NCBI GenBank assembly: GCA_947650285.1
Contig: CANTFL010000138.1
Location: 124,001-188,000, forward strand
DNA length: 64,000 bases
From: Hyaloperonospora brassicae
Lineage: Eukaryota > Oomycota > Peronosporomycetes > Peronosporales > Peronosporaceae
Reading direction: 5' to 3'
Under the pieces are notes generated by a model, which was given only the letters and a program-made list of their open reading frames with translations, was not told the origin of the DNA and did no database searches. Of the stretch, positions 7,373 to 51,450 are shown one piece after another. Each line of letters begins with the position of its first letter. Positions within the stretch are counted from its first letter, which is position 1. The translations under genes were made by a program, and so were the position numbers.

Positions 7373-7406
7373 GTTGGATGATGTGGTCCTTGGAAGGACT
7401 ACAAAG

Positions 7407-19078: not shown

Positions 19079-19110
19079 TTTATCTCGTAGAGATGTGACA
19101 GAACTTAGTT

Positions 19111-19156
19111 CTACCCCAGTAGGGCGCCCCGCGCCTACTGGGTGTCGACGTTTCCC
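19111..19156 (-). promoter_or_regulatory. Candidate -1 frameshift signal at gag-pol junction (B1)
   Basis: Minus strand: slippery heptamer G_GGA_AAC (19156-19150) in the gag frame, spacer GTCGACACC (9 nt), then a hairpin beginning CAGTAGGCGC and closing GCGCCCTACTG with one bulged base. The gag TAG (19137-19135) is in the 5' arm. pol is in the -1 frame and open through the region. The spacing is identical to family A although the heptamer differs. Confidence 0.8.
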
Positions 19157-20169: not shown

Positions 20170-20216
20170 CCTCGCAGAGGATCAGTCGTTACCGACTCAG
20201 GTGTAGATTGACTACT

Positions 20217-20226
20217 AGTGCTACCA
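20217..20226 (-). other. Primer-binding site of B1
   Basis: Minus strand TGGTAGCACT begins two bases after the 5' LTR, identical in sequence and spacing to the family-A primer site. Confidence 0.65.
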
Positions 20227-20228
20227 AG

Positions 20229-20805: not shown

Positions 20806-21500
20806 CATTCTAAAGAAGGCAGAAGATAAGACTCATAAATCAATCACGTTTCAATCTCTATTTCCCATAGCAAGTGTTTTCTCTTCGGTTCGTTTAAGTG
20901 CATACCAATCTCGCCCTTGTATAACTTCCATTGTCAACAGATTCGTCGATTATCTATTTCCGTCCTACGCCGAACACGATTATGCTCGTTTTCGACTCCA
21001 CACCAAGTCACGTGAGCAATAACGTGAAGAGTCACCTACAGGCTAGCAACTTACTGTACGCGGTCATCCTCGGCGGGCTGACGTCGTATCTCCAAACCTG
21101 CGACTACTGCGTCTTCAAGCCTTTATAGAAGCGACTAGCCGACCTGGTCGACAATTGGGAGGAGCACGGAACTCACTCCTACACGACAGGTGAAAATGTT
21201 CGCTCTCCGTCGCTTTCAATATGGTCGTTGGCTGGATAAAGGCCGCGTGTTTAATAATTGGCGAGCCATCTATACTCTGCAGCTTCCGCATCTGCTTTCT
21301 CGATATAAAACGCTGACTCGACACGTACGTGTCACATATATCACGAACACCATTTCCAGTAACTTGTGTTCGATGGCGACATCGCCGAATCGCTTTCGCA
21401 CTTAATCATCCTAAATTACAACAACAGCAGTGTCATGGACATCGATGACGACGACGAGTACGAGCTAGACTTCTCGAATGATCCAGATCTAAAGCTGTGA
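20806..21500 (+). pseudogene. pogo-like transposase, 3' part
   Basis: After Gypsy B1 the transposase resumes. A clear segment reads TIMLVFDSTPSHVS (second catalytic Asp), then LYAVILGGLTSYLQTCDYCV around 20980-21115, matching the family pattern of a GGLT..LQ motif after the second Asp. A stop follows FKPL at 21124-21126. Further fragments (LADLVDNWEEHGTHSYT, then an acidic tail DDDDEYELDFSNDPDLKL ending at a stop near 21500) lie in shifted frames. The gene is decayed independently of the LTR insertions. Confidence 0.7.
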
Positions 21501-32837: not shown

Positions 32838-32946
32838 TATTCACCAAAGATTGGTGACATCCCGTTAGTGCTAGAGATCCAAGATAATTTAACTCTATTT
32901 TGAGCCTCGCCATCATCCACGCGAAGTCCATCAGGCTTGTGCTCGG
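32838..32946 (+). pseudogene. LINE reverse transcriptase, piece 2 of 4
   Basis: Continues piece 1 in protein terms: after YADDTAVY the flank reads KIGDIPLVLEIQDN, then HAKSIRLVLG in a shifted frame, typical of the region after the YADD motif in non-LTR RTs. It ends at the ctcgg next to Gypsy A2. Confidence 0.7.
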
Positions 32947-33338
32947 TGTAACGGGGCAGCTCGTTACATGGAATTGTCACTTTAAGGAAAGTGACAATAA
33001 AGAATATGAAGATGGATATTCTTTAAAACAATATCACCAAAGTGGTGATATTGAAGGGTCGACCAAAGGGTCTGTTCATTGGTTGATATCTTGATGATAT
33101 CAACCCACCAATCGCCGCAAGACGCGCGCAATGAGTGGCGACGAGACGTCACCATACACTCAGTTATATTAGCATAATTAAGTTAAGTCAAACAGAAGAG
33201 ACAGTAGTTTAAAGACTTAATTTATTAATATAACAGTTCTACTTTTACCCTACCTACGCTTCCTCGCTTGCCACGTGTACGTCTGTCGGGGCACTCAAAA
33301 CCCTTGCGTTAAGTTACGCAAGGGTGTGCCCCGTTACA
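32947..33338 (+). repeat. 5' LTR of Gypsy A2
   Basis: 392 bp, tgtaacgggg...ccccgttaca. It carries the subtype signature 'cactcag' near 33160 shared with A3. It is composed of consecutive hairpins, for example 9-bp arms tgtcacttt/aaagtgaca and 10-bp arms ggttgatatc/gatatcaacc. Confidence 0.95.
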
Positions 33339-33340
33339 CC

Positions 33341-33350
33341 TGGTAGCACT
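33341..33350 (+). other. Primer-binding site of A2
   Basis: TGGTAGCACT, two bases after the 5' LTR; identical to B1. Confidence 0.65.
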
Positions 33351-33382
33351 TTGTAGTCCTTCCAAGGACCACATCATCCAAC

Positions 33383-34537
33383 ATGAACATGTTGGATGAA
33401 GAAGACACCTTTCACGCCACGCGTGAAGGGTTTACCCATTTGAGTGACATCGAATGGAGTGCGGTAGAACGAATGAGTTCTACCGTAGGCGAGTTCGCCA
33501 TTAGCGCCATGTTGGAGTCTCTAGACAGAGACCAACAACATGCCGCTATCGCCAAGTTCATTCAGAATGAACTTGCTCTCGAGAGGGAGAAAGTAGCCTT
33601 GCTTCACCAGCAAGGCTCTCAACAGGCCGAGCAGTTGAGAGAACTCGGTGCTCAACAGATAGAGCTGTTGAGACAGCAGCAATTCCATGCTGCTGTGGGC
33701 GGGACGGCACATGCGCGTCGTCCCGAAGTCATGAAGGTTGACATCTCCAAGTACAGTGGAGTCCCGGAGGACTCCCTGTTAATATGGTTTGTCGAACTCG
33801 ACAGAGCCTTAAGGGCTCGTCGCGTCAAAGATGAGCAAATGAAACTCACATTTGCTCAGACCCACTTGGCAGGGCGTGCCAAAACTTGGTCCCTGGGACT
33901 CGAGAGTAGCGACCCAAATGTGTTTAGGTCGCTAGATGACTTCAAGTCCCGGCTCAGACAAACGTTTGAGCCGCCACGGGCTGAGTTCAGGGCTCGTTCA
34001 GAGCTCCTGAAACTCAAGCAGGGTAAGCGTGATGTGCACGCTTACGCACAACATATACGACTCCTTGCGAGTAGTATAACTGCTAACCCGGTACATGAAC
34101 ACACGTTGATTACGGTGTTCATGCAAGGGCTCGCAGAAGGGCCCGTCAGGAGCCACCTGTTCCGCCTTGAGCTGAATACGCTTGAAGAAGCGATATCAGC
34201 CGCGGAACAGGAAGACTTTAGCATGAGACAGGCTCATGCTAGCTCAAACTCTTACCGTCCACCGATACGACAAGAGATCGGAGGTCCAGAACCAATGGAC
34301 CTCTGCTATGTTGAGAGCGAGAGACCTCGCTCTTCAAACTACAAGCGATTGCAGAGGTGCAATCGCTGTCAGAAGTTAGGGCACTACGCATACGAGTGTA
34401 GTGCTCCACGCCCAGTACCAAACAGTACTGAGCGAAATGGACGACCATTTGCCAGATAGGGCAATGGGCGTGGGTCCAGCGCTGTTGCGAAGCCGCAACA
34501 GCGAGACGGACCATCAAAAAATGGTCGGGGTCAGTAG
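33383..34537 (+). pseudogene. gag with one nonsense codon (A2)
   Basis: 384-codon gag as in A3 but with TAG at 34457-34459 where A3 has AAG (Lys), 26 codons before the normal end. The capsid domain and zinc knuckle CNRCQKLGHYAYEC are retained; the basic tail and the frameshift site are lost from the product. Gag-Pol therefore could not be made from this copy without readthrough. Confidence 0.92.
33556..33695 (+). repeat. Example block of the family-A hairpin chain inside gag
   Basis: Five back-to-back perfect inverted repeats in 140 nt of coding sequence: 33556-33572 (8-bp arms, 1-nt loop), 33596-33616 (8, 5), 33616-33641 (8, 10), 33651-33672 (8, 6) and 33674-33695 (8, 6). Confidence 0.95.
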
Positions 34538-34558
34538 GGGCGGAGCGCCCTACTGATC
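34516..34558 (+). promoter_or_regulatory. Candidate -1 frameshift signal at gag-pol junction (A2)
   Basis: A_AAA_AAT at 34516-34522 in the gag frame, spacer GGTCGGGGT, hairpin 34532-34555 with arms CAGTAGGG and CCCTACTG. The gag TAG at 34535-34537 is inside the arm, and pol is open in the -1 frame from here. Confidence 0.78.
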
Positions 34559-34587
34559 CAGCAACCTCAAGAGAATTTGCAAATCTC

Positions 34588-37500
34588 TTGACGAAAGTTG
34601 CTCCAGATACACAATCATTGTGTGTCTCTGCACCTGGTGATGACGTTTCGCTCATCACCTTGAAGTTGGAAGCGACAAATGATTTGTCGCTTCGTGCCCT
34701 AGTAGACTGTGGGGCGTCGAACAACTTTGTTCGTCGCCAGTCACTAGAGGGTCGTAGGCTCAAGTTCGTTGAGCGCGACATTCCCCTCACAAGGATGACG
34801 GTGCGCCTTGCAACAGGCGCATCGATAACCGTTGAGAAACGTGTATTAGGAATCCACTACACGTTAGAGGGCGAACAGTACGATGATGACTTCATCGTAC
34901 TAGATCTGGATGACAAATTTGATGTCATCCTGGGATTACCTTGGCTCAGAAAGTACGAGCCAAGAGTGAGCTGGCAGCATCGATCCGTGAAGATGCCTGC
35001 CGCTTGTTCATCAGATGGCCATCTGATGAACACCTTGGAGCGTCCACAAGCGTGTGGATGTTCTGCGAGTGAGTGCGATGGCCTCACTTGCGGTACGGTC
35101 GTTAGCACGACTGCACAAGATCACAGTGTAGTTGATCACTACACTGTGGAGCAAGCTCCCGGCGGCTGTACAGGAGTACAGGCTGCGCCGAAGGTTCACC
35201 CCTCGAATAAGTCGAGTGGACCGGGACATGGATGCATGCCTAGCGGGCAGCATCTTAGAAGAAAGAAGTCTGTTGCCCCCAAGGGGCAACATGAAAATCC
35301 TAGGTCGACTGGAGAGTCGACCGTAGAGGATCGGTACCTGACTGTGGTTGCACAGCCACAGTCAGAAGACGTCGAGAGAATAAGTCCCCACGTACTTGAG
35401 GAAGGAATTCCTCAAGAGTCACTTGCTGAAGGATTAGGCCTTCAGCAACCTGTGGAAGCAAGTTCCCAGGAAGTAGTCGAGACGTTGAACGTCTTGTTTA
35501 ATGACGGATCAAGTGTAGGCGCTTATACGCTTGATCTGATTGTGCCTCCGAAGTTGACTTCGGAGATAACTCAGTCGGAAACGCTAGAACCGAAACGGTT
35601 CTTGCGTGATCTGCGCAGTGGCAAAGTCAAGCAGATCTGCATACTCGTCACAGAGGACGAGTATGTGACCGACATTCGGTCGGCAACAGTATTTGCTGAG
35701 AACGAACGGGTTCTCAGCAGCTCATCGATGGACGAAAGTGTCCTCGATGAGAAGACTCGGATTGAGAGATACACGTCCCAATCCTGGGAGTCACTTCAGG
35801 CAAATCCTTTGTATAAGGATTTGATCGAATTCAGGGATGTGTTCCCTGAATCCGTACCTTGCGAGTTGCCTAAGGACAAAGGCACTCGACACGAGATCGA
35901 GCTCAAACCGGGCTCGAAATACTGTGTCATGAAGCAGTGGCCACTGCCTCGTGAACAAGTGATAGCGATCGACAAGTTCTTTGCCGATCGCTTAGCAGCG
36001 GGCCGTGTGAGGGAATCAACATCCCCTCACAGCTCTCCGACCTTCTGTGTGCGAAAGGCCACAGGAGGGTGGCGGATAGTGCACGCATTCAACAAGTTGA
36101 ATGCTGCAACGGTACCGGCTCAGACGCCGATACCGAGGAAGGACGTAATCATAGATGGTATGTCAAAGAGTACCATCTTTTCGTCCATGGATCTGATGGA
36201 TGGATTCTATCAGATCCTCATGCGTGAACGGGACGTCCCGTTCACGGCAGTGAGTACCCCCAGCGGGATGCTGTGGGAGTGGCTAGTGATGCCACAGGGG
36301 CTGAGTAATGCCCCTGCAACATTCAACAGATGTGTAACAAATCTGTTGAGACCGGTGCGAGACTTCGCACCGAGTTACTTCGACGATGTGTTCGTCCATA
36401 GCCGGGCTATGGACGGAAAGACGGACGTTGAAGTTCACAGAACTCACGTTCGTCAGGTTCTTCAACTTATGCGCAAGCATAAGTTGTACGCCAACCTCAA
36501 GAAGTGTATATTCGCGGCTAGCGAAATACCACTTCTTGGGTGCATCGTGGGTAAAAACGGCGTACGCCCTGATCCCGAAAAGATCAAGGCGATCACCGAC
36601 TGGCCAGTGCCAGTCGATGTCAAGGGACTAAGGAAGTTCCTTGGTCTTGCGGCGTACTTAAACAAGTACTCGCGCAACTACGCCGAGATGACTGTTCATC
36701 TTTCTTGCTTGCTCAAGAAAAATGTCAAGTGGTCATGGAACGCTGAGTGCCAGCGTTCCTTTGAAGGTATCAAGCGAAGCTTGATGCAATCGCCGATCTT
36801 GGCGATTGCAGATCAGGACAGACCATTTCATGTGGTCTGTGACGCCAGCGATTTCGCAATCGGCTATGCGTTAATGCAGTTCGATGCAGATGGCGCGGAG
36901 CGCGTCATCTGTTATCAGTCGCGTCAGCTGCAAGCAGCTGAGCGTAATTACCCAGTGCATGACAAGGAACTCCTTGCCATGAAATACGCACTGGCTAAGT
37001 TTCGCGTCTATCTCTTGGGAGATAGACCGTTTATTGTCTATACGGACCATGAGTCATTACGCACGGCCGAAAACAGCCCACACCTCTCGCAAAGGATGGC
37101 GAGGTGGCTGTCTTTATTCGCGGAGTATAACTTCTCCGTGGAGTATAAACCGGGACGACTCAATGTCGTCGCTGATGCGCTTTCGCGCCGGCCCGATTTC
37201 GAGCCGGACGCACAAATCAACAGTGAGGATAAGCCCACTGTTGCGACACTGTCAGTCTGTGTCCCGTCGTCAAGTTTACTTGACGACGTACGAAAGGCAT
37301 ACGCGGAAGATAAGGATCTTCTGCGATTGATGGATCATCTGGTAAATCCATCCAGTAAATCCATGAGGGATTTACCGGCTTTGTACCGATCCTCATCGGA
37401 TCGGTATAGTACACGCAACGGATTGCTGTACTATACAGCTGTTGCCGACGACACGCCTCGTGTCGTCGTACCCGCTCATCATGATTTGCGTTTACGCATC

Positions 37501-38451
37501 ATGTATGAGTGTCGAGATGCCCCAACAGGCGGTCATCGTGGTAGAGAAAAGACTTACCTCACGGTAAGTCGTGACTTTTACTGGCCACGCCAAATTCAGT
37601 TTGTCCGCAAGTACATACGTCCTTGCGAGGTTTGTCAACGGGTGAAGCCTAGTCCTTCATCCCGTGCGCCATTGCAGCCTCTGCCTGTTCCGACAGAGTG
37701 CTGGCAGTCCGTTTCAATGGACTTCGTCTTCGGGTTTCCCGAAGACGCTCACAAGAATAATGGTATTCTTGTGTTTGTTGACCGATTCAGCAAGATGGTG
37801 CATCTTGCTGCTGTCCCTGAGTCAATCAAGGCTCAAGGTTGTGCTCGTGTCTTTCTTGACACGGTCTTTAGACTCCACGGGTTACCCCGTGAACTCGTAT
37901 CCGACCGTGACCCTCGGTTCACGGCGGCATTTTGGCAAACCGTGTTCCGTACTCTCGGAACACGATTGAAGATGTCTACATATGACCATCCCGAAACAGA
38001 TGGTCAGACGGAACGTGCGAACCGTGTCCTCGAAGAGATTCTTCGAGGATATGTCCACTCGTTTCCGAGTTGGAGCGAATTCCTACCCATGGTGGAATTC
38101 GCCATCGATAATTCGGTGCATGCTTCCACACAGCACACACCGTTTTGCGTGAATGGCCTACGCCATCCACGTGTGCCCACCCTTTTAGAGTGTAACTCTT
38201 GGATAAGAGGGGAGGGACTCGCTCGAGCAAAAACCGTTTTGGCTCTTGCTCATCACGTGTCGACGCAAACGTCGTCACGTATGATGCCGATGTCGATCAA
38301 GTCGACATCGATGAAGAAGATCATCTCAATAATAGCGAAGACGCTATTATTGATTCGGATGATGATGACGATGCTGGTATATTCAGCATCGCCAACGATT
38401 ATGTCAGCGAGGAAGAAGACAACCTCGCTGAAGAAGAGAGCAATCTCTTAG
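34588..38451 (+). CDS. pol: protease, RT, RNase H, integrase (A2)
   Basis: 1287 codons with the same domain map as A1: DCGAS 40-44, YFDD 597-600, RNase H Asp 752, zinc finger from 983, integrase D1045/D1106/E1142. 34588 is a TTG and not a real start; the frame is open upstream into the gag overlap. It closes at 38451, beyond a G-run site (38208-38217) where A3 has one more base and continues into the chromodomain frame. All domains up to integrase are undamaged. Confidence 0.92.
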   Translation: MTKVAPDTQSLCVSAPGDDVSLITLKLEATNDLSLRALVDCGASNNFVRRQSLEGRRLKFVERDIPLTRMTVRLATGASITVEKRVLGIHYTLEGEQYDDDFIVLDLDDKFDVILGLPWLRKYEPRVSWQHRSVKMPAACSSDGHLMNTLERPQACGCSASECDGLTCGTVVSTTAQDHSVVDHYTVEQAPGGCTGVQAAPKVHPSNKSSGPGHGCMPSGQHLRRKKSVAPKGQHENPRSTGESTVEDRYLTVVAQPQSEDVERISPHVLEEGIPQESLAEGLGLQQPVEASSQEVVETLNVLFNDGSSVGAYTLDLIVPPKLTSEITQSETLEPKRFLRDLRSGKVKQICILVTEDEYVTDIRSATVFAENERVLSSSSMDESVLDEKTRIERYTSQSWESLQANPLYKDLIEFRDVFPESVPCELPKDKGTRHEIELKPGSKYCVMKQWPLPREQVIAIDKFFADRLAAGRVRESTSPHSSPTFCVRKATGGWRIVHAFNKLNAATVPAQTPIPRKDVIIDGMSKSTIFSSMDLMDGFYQILMRERDVPFTAVSTPSGMLWEWLVMPQGLSNAPATFNRCVTNLLRPVRDFAPSYFDDVFVHSRAMDGKTDVEVHRTHVRQVLQLMRKHKLYANLKKCIFAASEIPLLGCIVGKNGVRPDPEKIKAITDWPVPVDVKGLRKFLGLAAYLNKYSRNYAEMTVHLSCLLKKNVKWSWNAECQRSFEGIKRSLMQSPILAIADQDRPFHVVCDASDFAIGYALMQFDADGAERVICYQSRQLQAAERNYPVHDKELLAMKYALAKFRVYLLGDRPFIVYTDHESLRTAENSPHLSQRMARWLSLFAEYNFSVEYKPGRLNVVADALSRRPDFEPDAQINSEDKPTVATLSVCVPSSSLLDDVRKAYAEDKDLLRLMDHLVNPSSKSMRDLPALYRSSSDRYSTRNGLLYYTAVADDTPRVVVPAHHDLRLRIMYECRDAPTGGHRGREKTYLTVSRDFYWPRQIQFVRKYIRPCEVCQRVKPSPSSRAPLQPLPVPTECWQSVSMDFVFGFPEDAHKNNGILVFVDRFSKMVHLAAVPESIKAQGCARVFLDTVFRLHGLPRELVSDRDPRFTAAFWQTVFRTLGTRLKMSTYDHPETDGQTERANRVLEEILRGYVHSFPSWSEFLPMVEFAIDNSVHASTQHTPFCVNGLRHPRVPTLLECNSWIRGEGLARAKTVLALAHHVSTQTSSRMMPMSIKSTSMKKIISIIAKTLLLIRMMMTMLVYSASPTIMSARKKTTSLKKRAIS

Positions 38452-39431
38452 CAGTGCGCACGAAGCGCACTGCCAGACAAAACAAAGATTCAGCAGAGAA
38501 CTTCCTGCTGACTCGAGAAGCGGTAGTCCGTTTCGTTCAGGACTCCATCGCAAATGCGGTGGACCGTCAAAAACGGAACGCAGACAAGAATGGAAGAGCA
38601 AATGTTCTTTCATTTAAGGTTAACGACCTAGTACTACTGTCTACGGTAAACTTCCCTGGACATGCAGTTACTAGTGTCAGGAGTAGTAAACTACTGCCGA
38701 AGTACATTGGGCCATTTCGAGTGTTGCATCGCAAGGGCAATGCATACACACTCGAATTGCCACGTAAGATGCGCACGCATCCTACGTTTTACGTGGGGAG
38801 GCTTAGGTCGTACTGTCAGTACGAGCCTTCTTCTTCCGATGAAGATAGCCCCCACGTTCAAGAACATCCATCAAGTTCTTGCGTTCGCGCTCCAGACGAT
38901 CCGTCTGGTCGCGCAGATATGATACCTCGGAACTCAACCGAGATATCTCCCCGCGAGCTGTCGCCAGCTCGCCGAATAGGGAGCGGACATCCCGCTCGAC
39001 CTGGAGCTGCGCTGTGGAATAATCGGCGCGATCCCTCGCCCGATCAGCCTCGTGATCCTTGCGGTTCTTCCGCACGGTATCAGTGAAAGCGTAGCGCCGA
39101 TCGCGCTCGTGCTTCAAGTCATCGCGCAATTCATCGATTGCGCGATCCATCTCGTAAGGGTCGAGATGGTGAACAGAATCATCTGGAGGAGGTCTTTCCT
39201 CCTCCACCACATCCTTTGGTGGATGCTCACGGTGATCAACGCTTTCTAGTGGAGCGTATCTTGAATCACCGTGACGATTCAGGATCAAGGACGAGCTACC
39301 TCGTCCAGTGGCGGGGGTATCCACCCTCTTGGAACAGCTGGGAGCCCCGCTCTCAGCTGTTGATGGATGTTGAAGGTCTCGTCCGCCAGTATGACGAGAC
39401 CCATCCGATGAGTCCTGTGGCCCATCGGTAA
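38199..39431 (+). pseudogene. pol C-terminal region with chromodomain (A2), broken
   Basis: The frame carrying the acidic linker, integrase C-terminus ([16 protein letters not shown]) and chromodomain ([21 protein letters not shown]). It is out of frame with pol at the G run, and has an in-frame TGA at 39084-39086 before the chromodomain (39138-39431). A3 has the same TGA; A1 does not. On the other strand the same bases keep the antisense gene open. Confidence 0.85.
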
Positions 39432-40410
39432 ACACGCGCCCTAGGCGCTTGTAGACGGATTGCAAGTTTGCAATCGCGTCACGCATCTCCCCCGAGAGAT
39501 GTGCCCTTCCCCAGGGCGAATTTAGGGAGTACACATCCCTATGTGCACGCTGCGAGTTGTCAACACAACTCGCACAAGGGTCTCCCCATGTGAGGCAAGG
39601 AATGCCTGCCTCACTCGATAAACAATGCAACCGGTACCTGGCACCGGTTGGCGTTCGCCGTTCGAACCTGAGGCGTGTTGCCTCAAGTTTCTTGAGCCAC
39701 CCTTCTCGTCCAAAATTCTTTACGTTTTGGACGAACGCGTTCCACGCAGCCAAAAGCGATGTTTTGTCACGCTTTTGGTTGCTGTTGTACCATCGATGTC
39801 TAAGAAAGACATCGAGATAAAAATCTTCTTCAGCGCGAAAGTTCTTCGCGCTGGGACTCAAGCCGTGAAGCTCGGTTGCATCGAATAAGGGTATTCGATG
39901 GTGTTGGCCTGTCTCGTGAGACAGGCTATTGATGAGTTGTTCGGGCAAACGCCACGGCTTCAACTCATCACGCTTCACAGTGGTACCCTTGTCGGTACCA
40001 CGGCTCCCAGATTGACGACGGCTCGCGCCATCGTCATCACGCTCGTGCGAAGACGCACGAGCCGGCGGTGGTGAAGAATAGAACTCACCACCCTGATCAT
40101 CATCATCATCACTGCCGAACAGACTGTGATGCAAATCACGAGTCCGTTCGTTCGGCAGTGGTCTTGGCGAATACTGAGGCGTCGCCGGTGAGCGAGACGC
40201 CTCTGGAGCATTGCCCGAGTCAGACACGTCTGACTCGCCAGAGTAGATGACCTCTACATCAGGGTCATCGTGCGCACGCGGTGTGATACCGCGTGCACCT
40301 GCAGCACCTGTTGCTGCAGGCGAAGAAGGGGCGGCAGACGACGGAGCGTCTGCCGCAGAGGCTTGCACAGCACCAGGCTGTGTGGGTCTTGAGTCACCTC
40401 GCATAGACAT
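38803..40410 (-). CDS. Antisense protein of Gypsy family A (A2, intact, 535 aa)
   Basis: Same gene as at 351-1952, starting two codons earlier (MSMRGDSRP). Disordered acidic Ser/Pro N-terminus, basic middle with the C-x8-C-x6-C-x2-C cysteines, C-terminal coiled coil and KKK/R tail. 38803-39431 is antisense to the integrase tail and chromodomain. It differs from A1 by scattered substitutions and no frame change, while the sense frames in both copies are broken, so the antisense frame has been kept open better than pol in these copies. Promoter presumably in the 3' LTR, reading inward (inference). Confidence 0.75.
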
Positions 40411-40528
40411 GTTAACTATGCGAGGTCAAGCGAAAAGTGAATGGAACGGACCCAACAAGTGCTCCCAGTCCCAATGGTGGCCAACGGGTGGCCTCCATAT
40501 TTTCGATAGTCACACGGTGACTATCAGT

Positions 40529-40541
40529 TAAGGGGGGGTGA
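40529..40541 (+). other. Polypurine tract of A2
   Basis: aagggggggtga directly before the 3' LTR. Confidence 0.8.
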
Positions 40542-40932
40542 TGTAACGGGGCAACCCGTTACATGAAATTGTCACTTTAAGGAAAGTGACAATAAAGAAT
40601 ATAAAGATGGATATTCTTTAAAACAATATCACCAAAGTGGTGATATTGAAGGGTCGACCAAAGGGTCTGTTCATTGGTTGATATCTTGATGATATCAACC
40701 CACCAATCGCCGCAAGACGCGCGCAATGAGTGGTGACGAGACGTCACCATACATGCAGTTATATTAGTATAATTGAATTAAGTCAAACGAAGAGACAGTA
40801 GTTTAAAGACTTAATTTATTAATATAACAGTTCTACTTTTACCCTACCTACGCTTCCTCGCTTGCCACGTGTACGTCTGTCGGGGCACTCAAAACCCTTG
40901 CGTTAAGTTACGCAAGGGTGTGCCCCGTTACA
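40542..40932 (+). repeat. 3' LTR of Gypsy A2
   Basis: 391 bp. It has the 'catgcag' subtype signature of A1 rather than the 'cactcag' of its own 5' LTR. Confidence 0.95.
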
Positions 40933-41157
40933 TTTGGGACGTCCATGGAATGTGCTCGATGCGCTCTCTGTTCAACCGTCTGAGTCTTCTCACGGGCTAG
41001 AGCGAGACGGGTCCAGATAGTCTTGGTGCCTCGTTCCTAGTTCAATGGGGCGTGTCGACTTGTCCACTTGCACCCCAAGGTATCTGAACAGCTCATTAGA
41101 CCCGAGCAAAGGAGGCCTGTACGACTCGACTGTTCAGCTTGGGTCGAAAAGGCCGAG
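40933..41157 (+). pseudogene. LINE open reading frame, piece 3 of 4
   Basis: 225 bp between A2 and A3. It begins with a phrase that continues piece 2 (GTSMECARC) and contains further LINE-like but broken sequence, ending WVEKAES in one frame. It is the spacer of the A2/A3 inverted pair. Confidence 0.6.
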
Positions 41158-41555
41158 AGTAACGGGGCACACCCTTGCGTGAACTTAACGCAAGGGTATC
41201 GGTGCCCCGACAGACGTACACAAGGAAAGCGAGGAAGCGTAGGTAAGGTAAAAGCAGAACTGTTTTATTAAAATATATTAGGTCTTTTAACTACTATCTC
41301 TCTGTTTGACTTAACTTAATTATGCTAATATAACTGAGTTTATGGTGACGCCTCGTCACCACTCATTGCGCGCGTCTTGCGGCGATTGGTGGGTTGATAT
41401 CATCAAGATATCAACCCAATAAACAGACCCTTTGGTCGCTTCACCAATATCACCACTTTGGTGATATTGTTTCAAAGAATATTCAACTTCAATTTTCTTT
41501 ATTGTCACTTTCTCTTCAAAGTGACAATTTCCATGTAACGGGCTGCCCCGTTACA
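41158..41555 (-). repeat. 3' LTR of Gypsy A3
   Basis: About 398 bp. In the tgtcacttt/aaagtgaca hairpin the loop has changed from the usual cctt to ctcttc while both 9-bp arms are unchanged. Another stem near 41475 is degraded. Confidence 0.92.
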
Positions 41556-41691
41556 TCACCCCCCCTTAACTGATAGTCACCGTGTGACTATCGAAAATAT
41601 GGTGGCCACCCGTTGGTCACCATTGGGACAGGGAGCACTTGTTGGGTCCGTTCCATTCACTATTCCGCCTGACCTCGCATAGTTAACATGT

Positions 41692-43293
41692 CTATGCGGG
41701 GTGACTCAAGACCCACAGAGCCTGGTGCCTGTGCCAGCCTCTGCGGCAGACGATTCGTCGTCTGCTGCTCGTTCTTCGCCTGCAGCAACAGGTGCTGCAG
41801 GTGCACGCGGCATCACACCGCGTGCGCATGATGACCCCGACATTGAGGTCATCTACTCTGGCGAGTCAGACGTGTCTGACTCGGGCAATGCTCCAGAGGC
41901 GTCTCGCTCACCGGCGACGCCTCAGTATTCGCCAAGGCCACTGCCGAACGAACGGACTCGTGAGTTGCAACACAGTCTGTTCGGCAGTGATGACGAATCT
42001 GGTGATGAGTATGTTTGCTCATCACCGAATCGGCTCGTGCTCCTTCGCACGAGCGACCTGACGATGGTGCAACCCATCGTCATACTGACAACCGTGGTAC
42101 CAACGAAGGATACCACCGTGAAGCGTGATGAGCTGAAGCCGTGGCGTTTGCCCGAACGGCTCATCAATAGCTTGTCTCACGAGACAAGCCAACACCATCG
42201 AATACCCTTATTCGATGCGACTGAGCTTCACGGCTTGAGTCCCAGCACGAGCAACTTTCGCGCTGAAGAAGATTTTTAATCTCGATGTCTTCCTCAGACA
42301 TCGATGGTACAACAGCAACCAAAAGCGTGACAAAACCTCGCTTTTGGCTGTGTGGAACGCGTTCGTCCAAAACGTAAAGAATTTTGGACGAGAAGGGTGG
42401 CTCAAGAAACTTGAGGCGACACGCCTCAGGTTTGAAAAGCGAACGCCAACCGGTGCCAGGTACCGGTTGCACTGTTTGTCGAGTGAGGCAGGCATTCCTT
42501 GCCTCACATGGGGAGACCCTTGTGCGAGTTGTGTTGAAAACTCGCAGCGTGCACATAGGGACGTGTATTCCCTAAGTTCGCCCAGGGGAAGGGCACATCT
42601 CTCGGAGGAGATGCGTGACGCGATTGCAAACTTGCAATCCGTCTACAAGCGCCTAGGGCGCGTGTTTACCGATGGGCCACAGGACTCATCGGATGGGTCT
42701 CGTCATACTGGCGGACGAGGCCTTCAACATCCATCAGCAGCTGAGAGCGGGGCTTCCAGCTGTTCCAAGAGGGTGGATACCCCCGCCACTGGACGAGGTA
42801 GCTCGTCCTTGATCCTGAATCGTCACGGTGATTCAAGATACGCTCCACTAGAAAGCGTTGATCACCGTGAGCATCCACCAAAGGATGTGGTGGAGGAGGA
42901 AAGACCTCCTCCAGATGATTCTGTTCACCATCTCGACCCTTACGAGATGGATCACGCAATGATGAATTGCGCGATGACTTGAAGCACGAGCGCGATCGGC
43001 GCTACGCTTTCACTGATACCGTGCGGAAGAACCGCAAGGATCACGAGGCTGATCGGGCGAGGGATCGCGCCGATTATTCCACAGCGCAGCTCCAGGTCGA
43101 GCGGGATGTCCGCTCCCTATTCGGCGAGCTGGCGACAGCTCGCGGGGAGATATCTCGGTTGAGTTCCGAGGTATCATATCTGCGCGACCAGACGGATCGT
43201 CTGGAGCGCGAACGCAAGAACTTGATGGATGTTCTTGAACGTGGGGGCTATCTTCATCGGAAGAAGAAGGCTCGTACTGACAGTACGACCTAA
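41692..43293 (+). pseudogene. Antisense gene of family A (A3, frameshifted)
   Basis: Same gene as in A1 and A2 but broken by an extra C near 41728, an extra A near 42275 and a one-base loss near 42960. The frame is otherwise recognisable to the [10 protein letters not shown] end. Its N-terminal part is the most diverged of the three copies (region 41990-42110), yet the inverted repeats there remain perfect with different bases. Confidence 0.85.
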
Positions 43294-46200
43294 GCCTCCC
43301 CACGTAAAACGTAGGATGCGTGCGCATCTTACGTGGCAATTCGAGTGTGTATGCATTGCCCTTGCGATACAACACTCGAAATGGCCCAATGTACTTCGGC
43401 AGTAGTTTACTACTCCCGACACTAGTAACTGCGTGTCCAGGGAAGTTTACCGTAGACAGTAGTACTAGTTCGTTAACTTTAAATGAAAGAACATTTGCTC
43501 TTCCATTCTTGTCTGCGTTCCGTTTTTGACGGTCCACCGCATTTACGATGGTGTCCTGAACGAAACGGACTACCGCTTCTCGAGTCAGCAGGAAGTTCTC
43601 TGCTGAATCTTTGTTTTGTCTGGCACTGCGCTTCGTGCGCACTGCTAAGAGATTGCTCTCTTCTTCAGCGAGGTTGTCTTCTTCCTCGCTGACATAATCG
43701 TTGACGATGCTGAATATACCGGCATCGTCATCATCATCCGAATCAATAATAGCGTCTTCGCTATTATTGAGATGATCTTCTTCATCGATGTCGACTTGAT
43801 CGACATCGGCATCATACGTGACGACGTTAGCGTCGACACGTGATGAGCAAGAGCCAAAACGGTTTTTGCTCGAGCGAGTCCCTCCCCCTCTTATCCAAGA
43901 GTCACACTCTAGAAGGGTGGGCACACGTGGATGGCGTAGGCCATTCACGCAAAACGGTGTGTGCTGTGTGGAAGCATGCACCGAATTATCGATGGCGAAT
44001 TCCACCATGGGTAGGAATTCGCTCCAACTCGGAAACGAGTGGACATATCCTCGAAGAATCTCTTCGAGGACACGGTTCGCACGTTCCGTCTGACCATCTG
44101 TTTCGGGATGGTCATATGTAGACATCTTCAATCGTGTTCCGAGAGTACGGAACACGGTTTGCCAAAATGCCACCGTGAACCGAGAGTCACGGTCGGATAC
44201 GAGTTCACGGGGTAACCCGTGGAGTGTAAAGACCGTGTCAAGAAAGACACGAGCACAACCTTGAGCCTTGATCGACTCAGGGACAGCAGCAAGATGCACC
44301 ATCTTGCTGAATCGGTCAACAAACACAAGAATACCATTATTCTTGTGAGCGTCTTCGGGAAACCCGAAGACGAAGTCCATTGAAACGGACTGCCAGCACT
44401 CTGTCGGAACAGGCAGAGGCTGCAATGGCGCACGGGATGAAGGACTAGGCTTCACCCGTTGACAAACCTCGCAAGGACGTATGTTCTTGCGGACAAACTG
44501 AATTTGGCGTGGCCAGTAAAAGTCACGACTTACCGTGAGGTAAGTCTTTTCTCTACCACGATGACCGCCTGTTGGGGCATCTCGACACTCATACATGATG
44601 CGTAAACGCAAATCATGATGAGCGGGTACGACGACACGAGGCGTGTCGTCGGCAACAGCTGTATAGTACAGCAATCCGTTGCGTGTACTATACCGATCCG
44701 ATGAGGATCGGTACAAAGCCGGTAAATCCCTCATGGATTTACTGGATGGATTTACCAGATGATCCATCAATCGCAGAAGATCCTTATCTTCCGCGTATGC
44801 CTTTCGTACGTCGTCAAGTAAACTTGACGACGGGACACATACTGACAGTGTCGCAACAGTGGGCTTATCCTCACTGTTGATTTGTGCGTCCGGCTCGAAA
44901 TCGGGCCGGCGCGAAAGCGCATCAGCGACGACATTGAGTCGTCCCGGTTTATACTCCACGGAGAAGTTATACTCCGCGAATAAAGACAGCCACCTCGCCA
45001 TCCTTTGCGAGAGGTGTGGGCTGTTTTCGGCCGTGCGTAATGACTCATGGTCCGTATAGACGATGAACGGTCTATCTCCCAAGAGATAGACGCGAAACTT
45101 AGCCAGTGCGTATTTCATGGCAAGGAGTTCCTTGTCATGCACTGGGTAATTACGATCAGCTGCTTGCAGCTGACGCGACTGATAACAGATGACGCGCTCC
45201 GCGCCATCTGCATCGAACTGCATTAACGCATAGCCGATTGCGAAATCGCTGGCGTCACATACCACATGAAATGGTCTGTCCTGATCTGCAATCGCCAAGA
45301 TCGGCGATTGCATCAAGCTTCGCTTGTACCTTCAAAGGAACGCTGGCACTCAGCGTTCCATGACCACTTGACATTTTTCTTGAGCAAGCAAGAAAGATGA
45401 ACAGTCATCTCGGCGTAGTTGCGCGAGTACTTGTTTAAGTACGCCGCAAGACCAAGGAACTTCCTTAGTCCCTTGACATCGACTGGCACTGGCCAGTCGG
45501 TGATCGCCTTGATCTTTTCGGGATCAGGGCGTACGCCGTTTTTACCCACGATGCACCCAAGAAGTGGTATTTCGCTAGCCGCGAATATACACTTCTTGAG
45601 GTTGGCGTACAACTTATGCTTGCGCATAAGTTGAAGAACCTGACGAACGTGAGTTCTGTGAACTTCTGAACTTCAACGTCCGTCTTTCCGTCCATAGCCC
45701 GGCTATGGACGAACACATCGTCGAAGTAACTCGGTGCGAAGTCTCGCACCGGTCTCAACATATTTGTGACACATCTGTTGAATGTTGCAGGGGCATTACT
45801 CAGCCCCTGTGGCATCACTAGCCACTCCCACAGCATCCCGCTGGGGGTACTCACTGCCGTGAACGGGACGTCCCGTTCACGCATCAGGATCTGATAGAAT
45901 CCATCCATCAGATCCATGGACGAAAAGATGGTACTCTTTGACATACCACCTATGATGACGTCCTTCCTCGGTATCGGCGTCTGAGCCGGTACCGTTGCAG
46001 CATTCAACTTGTTGAATGCGTGCACTATCCGCCACCCTCCTGTGGCCTTTCGCACACAGAAGGTCGGAGATCTGTGAGGGAATCGTCGATTCCCTCACAT
46101 GGACCGCTGCTAAGCGATAGGCAAAGAACTTGTCGATCGCTATCACTTGTTCACGAGGCAGTGGCCACTTCTTCATGACACAGTATTTCGAGCCCGGTTT

Positions 46201-47518
46201 GAGCTCGATCTCGTGTCGAGTGCCTTTGTCCTTAGGCAACTCGCAAGGTACGGATTCAGGGAGCACATCCCTGAATTCGATCAAATCCTTATACAAAGGA
46301 TTTGCCTGAAGTGACTCCCAGGATTGGGACGTGTATCTCTCAATCCGAGTCTTCTCATCGAGGACGCTTTCGTCCATCGATGAGCTGCTGAGAACCCGTT
46401 CGTTCTCAGCAAATACTGTTGCCGACCGAATGTCGGTCACATACTCGTCCTCTGTGACGAGTATGCGGATCTGCTTGACTTTGCCACTACGCAGATCACG
46501 CAAGAACCGTTTCGGTTCTAGCGTTGGCAACTGAGTTATCTCCGAAGTCAACTTCGGAGGCACAATCAGATCAAGCGTATAAGCGCCTACACTTGATCCG
46601 TCATCAAACAAGACGTTTAACGTCTCGATTACTTCCTGGGAACTTGCTTCCACAGGTTGCTGAAGGCCTAATCCTTTAGCAAGTGACTCTTGAGGAATTC
46701 CTTCCTCAAGTACGTGGGGACTTATTCTCTCGACGTCTTCTGACTGTGGCTGTGCAACCACAGTCAGGTAACCGATCCTCTACGGTCGACTCTCCAGTCG
46801 ACCTAGGATTTTCATGTTGCCCCTTGGGGGCAACAGACTTCTTTCTTCTAAGATGCTGCCCGCTAGGCATGCATCCATGTCCCGGTCCACTCGACTTATT
46901 CGAGTGGTGGACCTTCGGCGCAGCCTGTACTTCTGTACAGCCGCCGGGAGCTTGCTCCAAAGTGTAGTGATCAACTACACTGTGATCTTGTGCAGTCGTG
47001 CTAACGACCGTACCGCAAGTGAGGCCATCGCACTCACTCGCAGAACATCCACACGCTTGTGGACGCTCCAAGGTGTTCATCAGATGGCCATCTGATGAAC
47101 AAGCGGCAGGCATCTTCACGGATCGATGCTGCCAGCTCACTCTTGGCTCGTACTTTCTGAGCCAAGGTAATCCCAGGATGACATCAAATTTGTCATCCAG
47201 ATCCAGTACGATGAAGTCATCATCGTACTGTTCGCCCTCTAACGTGTAGTGGATTCCTACTACACGTTTCTCAACGGTTATCGATGCGCCTGTTGCAAGG
47301 CGCACCGTCATCCTTGTGAGGGGAATGTCGCGCTCAACGAACTTGAGCCTACGACCCTCTAGTGACTGGCGACGAAAAAAGTTGTTCGACGCCCCACAGT
47401 CTACTAGGGCACGAAGCGACAAATCATTTGTCGCTTCCAACTTCAAGGTGATGAGCGAAACGTCATCACCAGGTGCAGAGACACACAATGATTGTGTATC
47501 TGGAGCAACTTTCGTCAA
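42666..47518 (-). pseudogene. pol with chromodomain (A3), multiply frameshifted
   Basis: All pol domains are present in order on the minus strand, but split. Breaks: an inserted base near 46769 after protease; a +1 change at 46074-46098 before RT; an 8-bp tandem duplication near 45661-45668 after YFDD; a one-base loss near 45329 before RNase H; TGA at 43010-43012 before the chromodomain (42666-42959). Unlike A1 and A2, the integrase and acidic linker are fused in frame at the G run 43884-43888. Confidence 0.9.
46074..46098 (-). repeat. Perfected hairpin with frame-breaking change in A3 pol
   Basis: Arms gtgagggaatcg and cgattccctcac (12 bp) surround one base. A1 and A2 have a 24-nt sequence here with only about 7 paired bases and an intact frame; A3 has 25 nt. 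Confidence 0.95.
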
Positions 47519-47547
47519 GAGATTTGCAAATTCTCTTGAGGTTGCTG

Positions 47548-47590
47548 GATCAGTAGGGCGCTCCGCCCCTACTGACCCCGACCATTTTTT
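47548..47590 (-). promoter_or_regulatory. Candidate -1 frameshift signal (A3)
   Basis: Heptamer A_AAA_AAT at 47590-47584, 9-nt spacer, CAGTAGGG hairpin; sequence identical to A1 and A2. Confidence 0.78.
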
Positions 47591-48723
47591 GATGGTCCGT
47601 CTCGCTGTTGCGGCTTCGCAACAGCGCTGGACCCACGCCCATTGCCCTTTCTGGCAAAAGGTCGTCCATTTCGCTCAGCACTGTTTGGTACTGGGCGTGG
47701 AGCACTACACTCGTATGCGTAGTGCCCTAACTTCTGACAGCGATTGCACCTCTGCAATCGCTTGTTGTTTGTAGAGCGAGGTCTCTCGCTCTCAACATAG
47801 CAGAGGTCCATTGGTTCTGGACCTCCGATCTCTTGTCGTATCGGTGGACGGTAAGAGTTTGAGCTAGCATGAGCCTGTCTCATGCTAAAGTCTTCCTGTT
47901 CCGCGGCTGATATCGCTTCTTCAAGCGTATTCAGCTCAAGGCGGAACAGGTGGCTCCTGACGGGCCCTTCTGCGAGCCCTTGCATGAACACCGTAATCAA
48001 CGTGTGTTCATGTACTGGGTTGGCAGTTATACTACTCGCAAGGAGTCGTATATGTTGTGCGTAAGCGTGCACATCACGCTTACCCTGCTTGAGTTTCAGG
48101 AGCTCTGAGCGAGCCCTGAACTCAGCACGTGGCGGCTCAAACGTTTGTCTGAGCCGGGACTTGAAGTCATCTAGCGACCTAAACACATTTGGGTCGCTAC
48201 TCTCGAGTCCCAGGGACCAAGTTTTGGCACGCCCTGCCAAGTGGGTCTGAGCAAATGTGAGTTTCATTTGCTCATCTTCGACGCGACGAGCTCTTAGGGC
48301 TCTGTCGAGTTCGACAAACCTTAGTGACAGGGAGTCCTCCGGGACTCCACTGTACTTGGAAATGTCGACTTTCATGACTTCGGGACGACGCGCATGCGCC
48401 GTCCCGCCCACAGCAGCATGGAATTGCTGCTGTCTCAACAGCTCCGTCTGTTGAGCACCGAGTTCTCTCAACTGCTCGGCCTGTTGAGAGCCTTGCTGGT
48501 GAAGCAAGGCTACTTTCTCCCTCTCGAGAGCAAGTTCATTCTGAATGAACTTGGCGATAGCGGCATGTTGTTGGTCTCTGTCTAGAGACTCCAACATGGC
48601 GCTAATGGCGAACTCGCCTACGGTAGAACTCATTCGCTCTACCGCACTCCATTCGATGTCACTCAAATGGGTAAACCCTTCACGCGTGGCGTGAAAGGCG
48701 TCTTCTTCATCCAACATGTTCAT
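47569..48723 (-). CDS. gag (A3, 384 aa, intact)
   Basis: Complete Gag: Gln/Glu-rich helix, capsid domain (RFVELDRALRAR; LLKLKQGKRDVHAYAQ), EPMDL, zinc knuckle CNRCQKLGHYAYEC and a basic tail ending NGRGQ at TAG 47569-47571, which lies in the frameshift hairpin. It is the reference for judging the nonsense codons in A1 and A2. It could supply Gag in trans to other copies. Confidence 0.93.
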   Translation of the reverse strand: MNMLDEEDAFHATREGFTHLSDIEWSAVERMSSTVGEFAISAMLESLDRDQQHAAIAKFIQNELALEREKVALLHQQGSQQAEQLRELGAQQTELLRQQQFHAAVGGTAHARRPEVMKVDISKYSGVPEDSLSLRFVELDRALRARRVEDEQMKLTFAQTHLAGRAKTWSLGLESSDPNVFRSLDDFKSRLRQTFEPPRAEFRARSELLKLKQGKRDVHAYAQHIRLLASSITANPVHEHTLITVFMQGLAEGPVRSHLFRLELNTLEEAISAAEQEDFSMRQAHASSNSYRPPIRQEIGGPEPMDLCYVESERPRSTNNKRLQRCNRCQKLGHYAYECSAPRPVPNSAERNGRPFARKGNGRGSSAVAKPQQRDGPSKNGRGQ

Positions 48724-48767
48724 GTTGGATGATGTGGTCCTTGGAAGGACTACAAAGTGCTACCAGG

Positions 48768-49158
48768 TGTAACGGGGCACACCCTTGAGTAACTTAACGC
48801 AAGGGTTTTGAGTGCCCCGACAGACGTACACGTGGCAAGCGAGGAAGCGTAGGTAGGGTAAAAGTAGAACTGTTATATTAATAAATTAAGTCTTTAAACT
48901 ACTGTCTCTCTGTTTGACTTAACTCAATTATGCTAATATAACTGAGTGTATGGTGACGTCTCGTCACCACTCATTGCGCGCGTCTTGCGGCGATTGGTAG
49001 GTTGATATCATCACGATATCAACCAATGAACAGACCCTTTGGTCGACCCTTCAATATCACCACTTTGGTGATATTGTTTTAAAGAATATCCATCTTTATA
49101 TTCTTTATTGTCACTTTCCTTAAAGTGACAATTTCATGTAACGGGCTGCCCCGTTACA
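48768..49158 (-). repeat. 5' LTR of Gypsy A3
   Basis: 391 bp, canonical termini; primer site TGGTAGCACT two bases inside. Confidence 0.95.
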
Positions 49159-51450
49159 CCAAAGGCTTCTACGCCGCGCTGCACTGCTGGCCCCCGTCAG
49201 CCACTATCACCAAGCTCGACGACCTGATAAAGAACTTAGCGTGACGTAAGGGCAACGGAAGGCGGTCTCGCTTATGGGTGCAAGCGAAGCAAGCAGCACT
49301 GCTATCCGGAGGGGAGGCATGTCCATCCGTGCATCCGTACTGAAATGAAGACACTTGCAGCCTTTACAGTAGGTAAATGGGCGCTGTCCTCTACCACACT
49401 AATTCTCTTCATCGGCGACATGATGTGGGGCGGCGGGGACACGAATCCGCGTTACATCACTCCGCGCTAGGAGGCTGACGTGGAACCGCAAATACTTAGT
49501 TCAATCTGGGAGACCGGGGATGATGCGGTCGCGGTGGCGACTGCAGAACACACTGGAGGAAGAGACGTGCGACGGATAATAAGCACGCGGATTGTTTCTT
49601 AGTGAAGGAAAAGATCACGAATACAATGTTGAAGAGAGCATCACAATCGACGTGCGAACGGCAATGATCGGCAGTACTCGCTACGAGATGGCCGTGGACA
49701 CCATTCGTAACAGTCCTTTTGACTCGAGGTGGATTCATCACGCGTCAATGGCAAACACGTCGTTGCAACTTGACCAACAAAGGAGTCAGTTGCAAGCCCT
49801 ACAGTGCAAGTATCGCACGTAACAAAACAACACTTATCGACACTCTCTTATGGAATTAGATCGAGTACAACTTAGTGCTGCTTACATCTACAGACAGCAT
49901 GAAAATGATGCCCATGGCTAAGCAACGGCAAATCGGTCGTTTCTGCCTCGCACTGGCGTACAATCTCTCTTGCGCTGGCCGGCCGTGGGCAACACCCTCA
50001 TATCGGATCAAACTGAAGCCCACAAGCATCATGACGGGACGTTGGATTGCAGCCGCACGACTCTTTTGCACTACGATGCAGGTCAATTGTGTGGCACAAC
50101 CCAAGTGCACTTCGTGGCGGCGTCCGTCGGGGCACCCGTCTCTTGCGGCACTCCTGGCTGCTTCGGAGCACATGCATCTCTCATGCGCATCGTGCAGCTT
50201 CAAGCAGATAAGCATCGGTGGCAGCCGCGCCGTGGAGTCCTGAAGAAGATTGTGGCTATCCAGCAATAATGACAAGTTGAACAGCAAAGTGACAAGTGCG
50301 TGATAGCGAATGACTATCGCGTCGTCTCACTTGGCGCATTCATGGTCTAGTGGATGAAGTTACGGCAAATACGTGCAGCGTTCCCGCAAGTCACACGAAC
50401 GATGTATCGGCTGAAGAGTACCAATTTTATCGCTGAAATTGGGCAGCGCAGGACACGGCCCCGAGTGATCCCACGGCTTCTAAGCATCCGCCAGCCATGA
50501 CCTCTCCTCAGCGCAACTACATTGTCAACATATCTTGGCGCTATTGGGTCGCCACGAGGGCGTCGACGATGTTTGCATCCACAATTAAACCTTTGCAATT
50601 GCGCTGTAGTAATAATCAAGCACCGCGTGGGAGGCGGCCCAAACGACGCTTATAAAAAGTGTTATGACACGATAGACAAGGGTGGCGGTCTTCGCGGCTG
50701 CGAACAAACGCTGTTGCTATGCGGCTGCAACGAGGGCTCACGCGATCAATACCGTGCGGCTCTAATGCATGAAAGACCCGACCTTATCGGATAAAGACAA
50801 CCAAGTAATTGATAGCCCAGTCAACGGCCTGCCTTGCATGCTTTCGCAGCTTGACCTACCACCATTGGTGGCGCCGAAGAAGGCCGGAAAGGAATCTCGT
50901 GAGATAAGCGCTCTCGGATACTCTTCTACGACACTTCGGACTTGCTCCACAACAGGACTTTCACCAGGTGGACAATCCGATTTTCGCTACCTGCGCTTAT
51001 TCGGTGAAACTTTCTCGGCAGCCTGGGCCCAAACGGCTTCGGGTCGGTTATTCATTGAGTACACGGGCCAACACATGCAGCGACAACCACGTGGATCGCA
51101 TTCATGCCATACATCGCGAAGAAGACAACGGACAATGTTGTTGAGTACATTGAACTTGTCCATGCCCTCCGAAAATTGAAGGTGAGCGGATCGTGACACA
51201 GCGCGTAGTGGGCAACAGTGCGATGGGGCTTTCACAGCGCTGAATGCACCGCTCCCCCTTTAAGCATCGACTTAAATCCCTCTATCGCAAGGCGAGAGCA
51301 CTCGCAGACGAAGTTGTGGTCGCACACTAGGCTCATTCCTACCGCGAGTACAACATGGTGGTGAACAGAGCAGCCAACATTGCGATGGACACTCGAGAAT
51401 TCTCTCAGGTGCTCACACCGACTTATCGCCATCCCGTATGCTCAGTAAGA
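49159..51450 (+). pseudogene. LINE open reading frame, piece 4 of 4, with RNase H domain
   Basis: Broken sequence that near its end contains an RNase H-like series: NVVEYIELVHALRKLK at about 51140, VVGNSAMGLSQ, LYRKARALADEVVVAH and EYNMVVNRAANIAMDTR at 51340-51390, with the expected acidic and Asn/Asp positions of type I RNase H in LINE ORF2 proteins. Several stops and frameshifts occur. The first ~1.5 kb is LINE-like by position only; phrases such as FYAALHCWPPSATITKLDDL are protein-like but not assigned. Confidence 0.6.

Follow-up and report, generated by a model that had tools for sequence, protein, structure and literature searches.

Why a retrotransposon should carry short perfect hairpins through its genes as well as its long terminal repeats (LTRs) is the question raised by A2, a Ty3/Gypsy element of 7986 nt (32947–40932, + strand) in the 64,000 nt of Hyaloperonospora brassicae contig CANTFL010000138.1 analysed here (the window; positions 124,001 to 188,000 of the contig). 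Perfect inverted repeats with arms of at least 7 bp and loops of at most 10 nt were counted as standard and compared with dinucleotide shuffles and with codon-preserving shuffles, in which the protein and the codon usage are kept. A2 contained 122 such repeats and its dinucleotide shuffles 5.1; the two other copies of this family (family A) in the window, A1 (1–7807, − strand, truncated by the window start) and A3 (41159–49161, − strand), had a like chain, with 129 and 114 repeats versus 4.3 and 4.7. The respective densities of A1, A2 and A3 were 16.5, 15.3 and 14.2 repeats per kb, compared to 0.5–0.6 per kb in the shuffles. With arms of at least 9 bp there were 68, 72 and 62 repeats, and the shuffles gave 0.3–0.4 (0.33 for A2).

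The excess extended over the LTRs, gag, pol and the antisense gene, as the original prediction had stated. Compared to codon-preserving shuffles, the A2 gag open reading frame (ORF; 33383–34459, + strand) had 16 repeats versus 1.0 (sd 1.1), the pol ORF (34588–38451, + strand) 58 versus 3.2 (sd 1.4), or 33 versus 0.23 with arms of at least 9 bp, and the antisense ORF (38803–40410, − strand) 27 versus 1.5 (sd 1.5). The LTRs of family A carried 15–18 repeats per kb, which was above dinucleotide shuffles. Repeats of equal size in A2 were inverted in 122 cases, direct in 10 and mirror in 6, the last two being counted without a shuffle control. Density was about tenfold lower or more in the remainder of the window: 1.6 per kb between 7810 and 32940, a region that includes a second Gypsy family, B, and a solo LTR (41 repeats versus 14.7 shuffled), and 0.5 per kb between 49165 and 64000 (8 versus 11 shuffled).

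Folding of 150-nt windows agreed with these counts. Averaged over windows, gag, pol and the antisense ORF of A all had folding energy beyond that of codon shuffles, and for A pol this amounted to z-scores of −24.2 (sense strand) and −24.4 (antisense strand). Two further elements of the same genome, a distant Gypsy element (C) and a LINE, gave −0.8 to 0.3 and Copia pieces gave −0.4 to −2.1; family B and a third Gypsy family, D, gained folding energy on both strands. The gain per window was 20–21 kcal/mol in A pol and 10.5–13 kcal/mol in coding parts of the RNA phages MS2 and Qbeta, with 5.3 kcal/mol for the antisense strand of MS2 mat. Chance, base composition, codon usage or low-complexity sequence is already excluded as an explanation by the shuffle counts and the comparators, since neither the Gypsy C piece (L071, 24% identity to A) nor the LINE piece (L072), one of each, departed from chance level in hairpin number. 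Nothing weighty speaks for such an origin; arms of 4 bp in A, which were about as numerous as in codon shuffles, sat close to expectation, and its probability is negligible. It is thus confirmed that the hairpins of A are far beyond chance, and the observation is real and strong.

The best non-overlapping chain in A2 held 210 hairpins with a median centre spacing of 34 nt. Since 86 of the 210 had arms of 5–6 bp, which exceeded codon shuffles only mildly, the clear excess comprised about 126 hairpins with arms of at least 7 bp, or approximately one per 63 nt; the one per 25–30 nt given by the original prediction was too dense. The five single hairpins that it quoted were all present, three of them longer than described: the hairpin across the gag start codon (33374–33399, + strand) had 12-bp arms and a 2-nt loop, the palindrome in the reverse transcriptase (RT) region (36223–36246, + strand) was perfect over 24 nt, and the arms at 36464–36485 were of 10 bp. 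A quoted block of five between 33556 and 33695 consisted of four chain hairpins and the palindrome CTCTCGAGAG at 33576–33585. As judged from titles and the starts of abstracts, with subscription papers mostly uncovered, the literature did not describe any retrotransposon with coding sequence of this kind, which lends weak support to this being the first description of one whose coding sequence is composed of short perfect hairpins.

Arm length in family A and its relatives

Relative to codon shuffles, arms of 5–6 bp were mildly commoner in A (82 versus 49.5 in pol, loops 0–16) and arms of at least 8 bp were in large excess. Loops peaked at 4–5 nt and the excess faded to background beyond approximately 16 nt. 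The fraction of arms gaining one more pair (the extension share; loops 0–8) is 0.25 by chance. Between 33383 and 40410 of A2 it was 0.62–0.83 from 5 to 8 bp, 0.51 at 9 bp and 0.30 at 10 bp, and in the non-coding parts of A2 it was 0.88–0.93 at 6 to 9 bp (11/12 at 9 bp) and then 4/11 at 10 bp. At 10 bp the share was 0.44 (15/34) in A3 and 0.42 (14/33) in L069, a diverged copy of A; the remaining window gave 0.23–0.34 for arms of 4–7 bp. As the shares fall near 10 bp, family A prefers arms of about this length, the limit not being sharp. A stability target for the hairpins was also considered and rejected: arm length fell as stem G+C rose over the whole of A2 (rho −0.28, p 0.0016), but gag and pol alone had no clear trend (rho −0.20, p 0.08).

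The original prediction had taken family B to be poor in hairpins, and this proved incorrect. The B element (12942–20806, − strand), which has 50% protein identity to A, carried hairpins of its own, mainly with arms of 5–6 bp and loops of 0–6 nt, a loop of 1 nt being the commonest. Its pol ORF contained 56 arms of at least 6 bp versus 12.7 in codon shuffles, of which just 7 were of at least 7 bp. With loops of 0–3 nt there were 37 six-bp arms versus 4.5 expected and 50 five-bp arms versus 14.3; with loops of 4–6 nt the excess was smaller (11 versus 2.2 and 37 versus 10.1, respectively). Six-bp arms in the coding sequence of B seldom reached 7 bp (7/63, loops 0–6), which is rarer than extension by chance (p 0.0085 versus 0.25). 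In the two LTRs and the untranslated part of B the arms were mainly of 5 bp (14 versus 2.6, 11 versus 2.1 and 17 versus 4.0 expected), so the small arm size is not dictated by the protein code; 4 of 11 six-bp arms in these non-coding parts extended further. A weaker excess of 5–6 bp arms with short loops was also observed in the solo LTR of a relative (56727–57238, − strand).

Family D, which the original prediction had likewise missed, was intermediate in the trait. Its 2.5-kb piece (L070), with 53% identity to A, held 20 chain hairpins with arms of 7–10 bp, and 19 repeats with loops of at most 10 nt versus approximately 1.8 expected. Copia pieces had little or no excess, the integrase piece being slightly richer in 6–7 bp arms than expected. 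With C, D and the LINE represented by one fetched piece each, and all from one host genome, the trait tracked the Gypsy lineage of A, B and D rather than the host. Hairpin positions were not common to the three families: 1 of 56 centres was shared between A and B (1.2 expected), 1 of 39 between A and D (0.8 expected) and 2 of 24 between B and D (0.5 expected, p 0.09). A search for relatives in viral and prokaryote contigs returned nothing useful.

These family differences bear on a possible role in packaging or compaction, in which the element's own Gag, or an RT complex, would bind hairpins of a set length regardless of sequence, each family marking its own genomic RNA from end to end with its own hairpin size. 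Arm length was family-specific and remained so in non-coding parts, as the drop in A2 extension past 10 bp and the 5-bp arms of the B LTRs illustrate; the trait followed one lineage, and MS2 and Qbeta, for which numbers were small, had no clear arm-length plateau. Recognition by Gag was kept as a close second because family-specific arm length and restriction to one lineage fit a protein partner better than they would a general shield. We nevertheless regard it as doubtful. The limits on arm length were not sharp in B non-coding sequence, A3 or L069, more than 100 sites would exceed what a packaging signal needs, and a preference for GNRA or UNCG loops was absent (3 of 21 four-base loops, either strand). 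Imperfect pairs did not favour G-T over A-C either (13 and 14, respectively, of the 40 interior mismatches in near-perfect A2 stems), and the phages likewise had no clear preference.

Variation within the stems

The register of the stems indicated how the pairing was reached. In A pol, third codon positions faced third codon positions in 5 of 56 stems, the other two registers accounting for 28 and 23 (chi-square p 0.0004), and the counts for gag (8, 7, 3) and D (9, 8, 3) agreed. Rarity of the third–third register is expected if pairing arose through synonymous changes, and on this evidence the stems were built largely through synonymous sites.

Variants were analysed in 30 A copies (L009–L038; the best 30 of 106 listed matches to the A2 RT region, among 6761 first-look candidates) over 4.2 kb (34537–38703), at a mean identity of 98.95%, and were polarised by the single diverged copy L069. 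Each of the 30 retained 61–70 repeats with arms of at least 7 bp within this region. Third-position variants present in at least three copies were found at 6 of 440 stem sites versus 35 of 824 sites outside (p 0.0045) and 9 of 125 loop sites (p 0.0015), while rare third-position variants did not differ between stems and the outside (32/440 versus 64/824, p 0.82). Among all possible synonymous third-position changes (n = 2388; transitions weighted 2.6 to 1), 41.6% would make local hairpins shorter and 5.2% longer. When both alleles were present in at least three copies, 4 of 41 polarised synonymous variants shortened hairpins and 4 of 41 lengthened them; unpolarised, 5 of 43 shortened them. As shared synonymous changes so seldom shorten hairpins relative to expectation, selection appears to maintain them.

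Selection for ever longer hairpins was considered as well. Shared synonymous variants lengthened hairpins in 10 of 67 cases versus the 5.2% expected (p 0.0023), but the case was weakened by the test requiring both alleles in at least three copies, in which the 4 of 41 gave p 0.16.

Rare variants, which are nearest to raw mutation, bear on the hairpin-templated mutation suggested by the original prediction. Under this explanation an imperfect hairpin would have one arm rewritten from its partner during reverse transcription; palindromes would thereby become perfect and build up, with protein function acting only as a filter, and the arm length of a family would be a property of its polymerase. 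The perfect Watson–Crick pairing, the strand symmetry, the hairpins in every part of the element, their non-homologous positions between families, the preferred arm lengths and, for the elements seen, the confinement to a single RT lineage are all in its favour. Rare synonymous variants polarised by L069 shortened hairpins in 22 of 87 cases and lengthened them in 9 of 87 (p 0.047); lengthening was not clearly enriched in the unpolarised set (7/90, p 0.24) or in a separate count (4/72 versus the expected 5.2%), and hairpin-making changes made up 13 of 187 rare variants versus 116 of 1500 random changes (p 0.88). This near lack of bias towards hairpin-making counts against templated mutation. 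Shortening changes were moreover commoner among rare variants (48/187) than among those in at least three copies (14/109, p 0.011), which is a mark of selection, and two-sided changes were few. We consider this origin improbable, and the rare variants thus disfavour that part of the original prediction.

Comparison of A with L069 gave 2.2–2.9% differing sites in stems, 7–9% in loops and approximately 6% in the remainder. This contrast is in part a product of the procedure, in which the stems were defined on only one member of the pair, and it stood in both directions. L073 and L074, two further old copies from the diverged subfamily, are short, decayed and 92.8–93.1% identical to an A copy, and had just 3–4 stem differences. 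Outside stems, the 30 A copies had G-to-A changes at 46 sites versus C-to-T at 24, a strand asymmetry that may stem from reverse transcription.

The types of imperfect pair were compared in search of a sign of selection on the sense RNA through tolerance of G-U pairs. Distinct one-sided variant states in the 30 A copies were A-C in 26 cases and G-T in 15, whereas 30 B copies gave 30 and 52; pair types in the LTRs were G-T in 10 cases and A-C in 4. With no G-T over A-C preference in A, the comparison was not decisive, as MS2 and Qbeta likewise lacked a clear one. The strand-symmetric gain in folding, together with this absence of a G-T preference in A or the phages, does not distinguish an RNA-level from a DNA-level effect. 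A role at the DNA level would involve hairpins or cruciforms in DNA that is single-stranded or supercoiled; they might, for instance, protect minus-strand cDNA or act as a barrier to recombination between many copies. Strand-symmetric pairing suits such a role, as does copy number, a 28-mer of A matching 781 places in the 100.6-Mb assembly with at most three mismatches. The loop optimum of 4–5 nt and the spread of loops to approximately 13 nt do not require cruciforms, however, and this analysis gave no sign of a DNA step, so that we rate this role as more improbable still than templated mutation.

Self-folding and possible resistance to RNA silencing

Selection on folding is well supported, and what selection would see is the folding of the nucleic acid itself. 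The reading placed first, which we hold tentatively and below an even chance, is that the RNA folds on itself into these hairpins and in this form resists both duplex formation and silencing. Among the roles offered by the original prediction a structured RNA genome fits best and evasion of silencing may also apply; its interpretation overall is partly supported. Family A would then be an otherwise ordinary Ty3/Gypsy element in which selection has turned the genomic RNA into a run of short local hairpins, with an optimum near 10-bp arms and 4–5 nt loops; its antisense RNA and its single-stranded cDNA, being complementary, would share them. By folding up immediately, such a strand would anneal poorly to its complement, would be a poor template for a host RNA-dependent RNA polymerase (RdRP) and would be less reachable by small RNAs. 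Arms that are almost always of at most 12 bp would lie below the stem lengths known to be cut by Dicer-type enzymes. In RNA phages local hairpins keep the two strands apart; the retrotransposon would apply this principle in a host equipped with silencing genes.

Domain matches in the host genome comprised three Piwi, six RNase III and one RdRP. The genome also gave 29 matches to the elicitin domain, elicitins being a hallmark of oomycetes. Long-hairpin Dicer substrates and microRNA-like precursors have stems of approximately 20 bp or more, and the longest perfect arm in A2 (loops up to 14 nt) was 14 bp, in one of the 210 chain hairpins, so A2 lacks stems of that length. In Phytophthora infestans, small RNAs of 21, 25/26 and 32 nt are described (PMC3522703), most of which map to transposable elements, chiefly LTR retrotransposons, and which lie along two Gypsy-type elements. 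It is because of these host genes and the P. infestans small RNAs on Gypsy elements that resistance to silencing was placed first. How the structure of guide and target affects RNA interference has also been studied (PMC2648742).

Several results weigh against resistance to silencing. A general anti-silencing benefit leaves unexplained why Copia, the LINE and distant Gypsy pieces lack the trait, and why arm length is family-specific. At the scale of single small RNAs, 17–22% of 21-nt windows in A folded at −5 kcal/mol or better (shuffles 7–10%), as did 33–41% of 25-nt windows (shuffles 17–22%), and B nearly equalled A in this share with much shorter hairpins; the long arms of A are therefore not accounted for by shielding from single small RNAs alone. 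Hairpins in A were not more evenly spaced than random, regular spacing being found only in D (31 hairpins with arms of at least 6 bp, p 0.001). The register bias was unclear in the antisense ORF (8, 11, 6) and in B (21, 14, 18). Compensatory double changes were few, with five between A2 and L069 and two single-copy cases among the 30 copies, and a further count gave none on the stems of L011 and one on those of L069; the LTR alignment had no covariation beyond shuffles.

Genome-scale ordered RNA structure (GORS) is defined by coding-sequence folding energy well below that of sequence-matched shuffles along a plus-strand RNA virus genome. Family A resembles it in folding energy far beyond sequence-order controls across coding sequence, but it is an integrated LTR retrotransposon and not a plus-strand RNA virus, and has perfect stems with a family-specific preferred arm length. 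GORS has been associated with viral persistence (PMC3950689, PMC3695492). MS2 and Qbeta share with A the dense local hairpins and, in three of four phage coding parts, a near-equal gain on both strands; perfect repeats with arms of at least 9 bp nevertheless numbered 9.0 per kb in A2 versus 0.28 in MS2 and 1.19 in Qbeta. Yeast Ty3 RNA has been described as having a core that is well folded, with short palindromes at the 5′ end that serve in dimerisation (PMC11381356), whereas in A the chain of perfect hairpins runs through all genes. Palindromes in the LTRs of maize Sireviruses, which are Copia elements, are reported hotspots of small-RNA mapping (PMC5311732). Those palindromes are located in the regulatory part of the LTR, while the Gypsy family A has them through gag, pol and the antisense ORF.

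Put more broadly, and with somewhat less confidence than resistance to silencing, this retrotransposon lineage may write a ‘hairpin code’, in which sequence-free hairpins of a length set by the family extend over all genes and are recognised by their shape. It would serve either as a self mark for its own Gag or in evasion of host silencing, and would amount to a length-coded structural layer over the protein code. Were the hairpins a shield, a retrotransposon would be using, genome-wide, a trick otherwise credited to RNA viruses, and the set of families A, B, D and C in one genome would make the escape of transposon RNA from silencing directly testable. As a packaging mark they would imply recognition by hairpin length instead of sequence. 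Either way, the protein code carries an extreme second constraint, with natural replicates of differing hairpin size in one host.

Structure of A2 and the surrounding window

A2 has LTRs around gag and pol, with RT and RNase H ahead of integrase, as in Ty3/Gypsy elements. The 5′ LTR (32947–33338, + strand) begins TGTAACGGGGCA, finishes TGCCCCGTTACA and contains hairpins with arms of 7, 11, 11, 10 and 10 bp; the 3′ LTR (40540–40932, + strand) follows a G-rich polypurine tract, and the two are 392/393 nt long. Within A2, the longest interval free of chain hairpins with arms of at least 6 bp lies in the 5′ LTR (33106–33299, + strand) and has its 3′ counterpart at 40750–40893; these stretches, 144–194 nt in length, are perhaps a promoter or transcription start region. 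No clear target-site duplication (4–6 bp expected) was found beside A2 (32942–40937), and the ends of A3 were placed inexactly.

The gag ORF matched Retrotrans_gag and Ty3_capsid, with a weak CCHC knuckle. The pol ORF encodes protease, RT, RNase H and integrase, the Pfam order in A being RVP_2, RVT_1, RNase H, H2C2 and rve, which together with the LTRs, the Ty3-type capsid and the polypurine tract gives A its likeness to Ty3/Gypsy. The end of pol (SH3_Tf2-1; 38199–39086, + strand) is in a frame different from that of the pol ORF in A2; several other A copies have open pol frames of 1605–1666 aa. The antisense ORF, likewise filled with hairpins, encodes 535 aa, for which a Pfam search gave no family over the cut-off and a PDB search no match. 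A C-terminal coiled coil was predicted, and a single-sequence fold (mean pLDDT 49.3) was confident only for the C-terminal helix. This ORF was stop-free over the compared part of A1 and differed in length (shifted) in A3 and L069. Intactness varied further: A1 had a stop in gag, and pol of A3 and all three frames of L069 were unlike those of A2 in length.

The LTRs of A3 (41159–41558 and 48768–49161) were approximately 10% apart and those of A2 3%, which suggests recombination between LTR subfamilies. A solo LTR of a diverged A relative, with approximately 85% identity, was located at 12127–12526 (+ strand). An ORF at 8303–9028 had a weak match, just over the cut-off, to SCAB-Ig, the Ig domain found in a family of plant actin-binding proteins.

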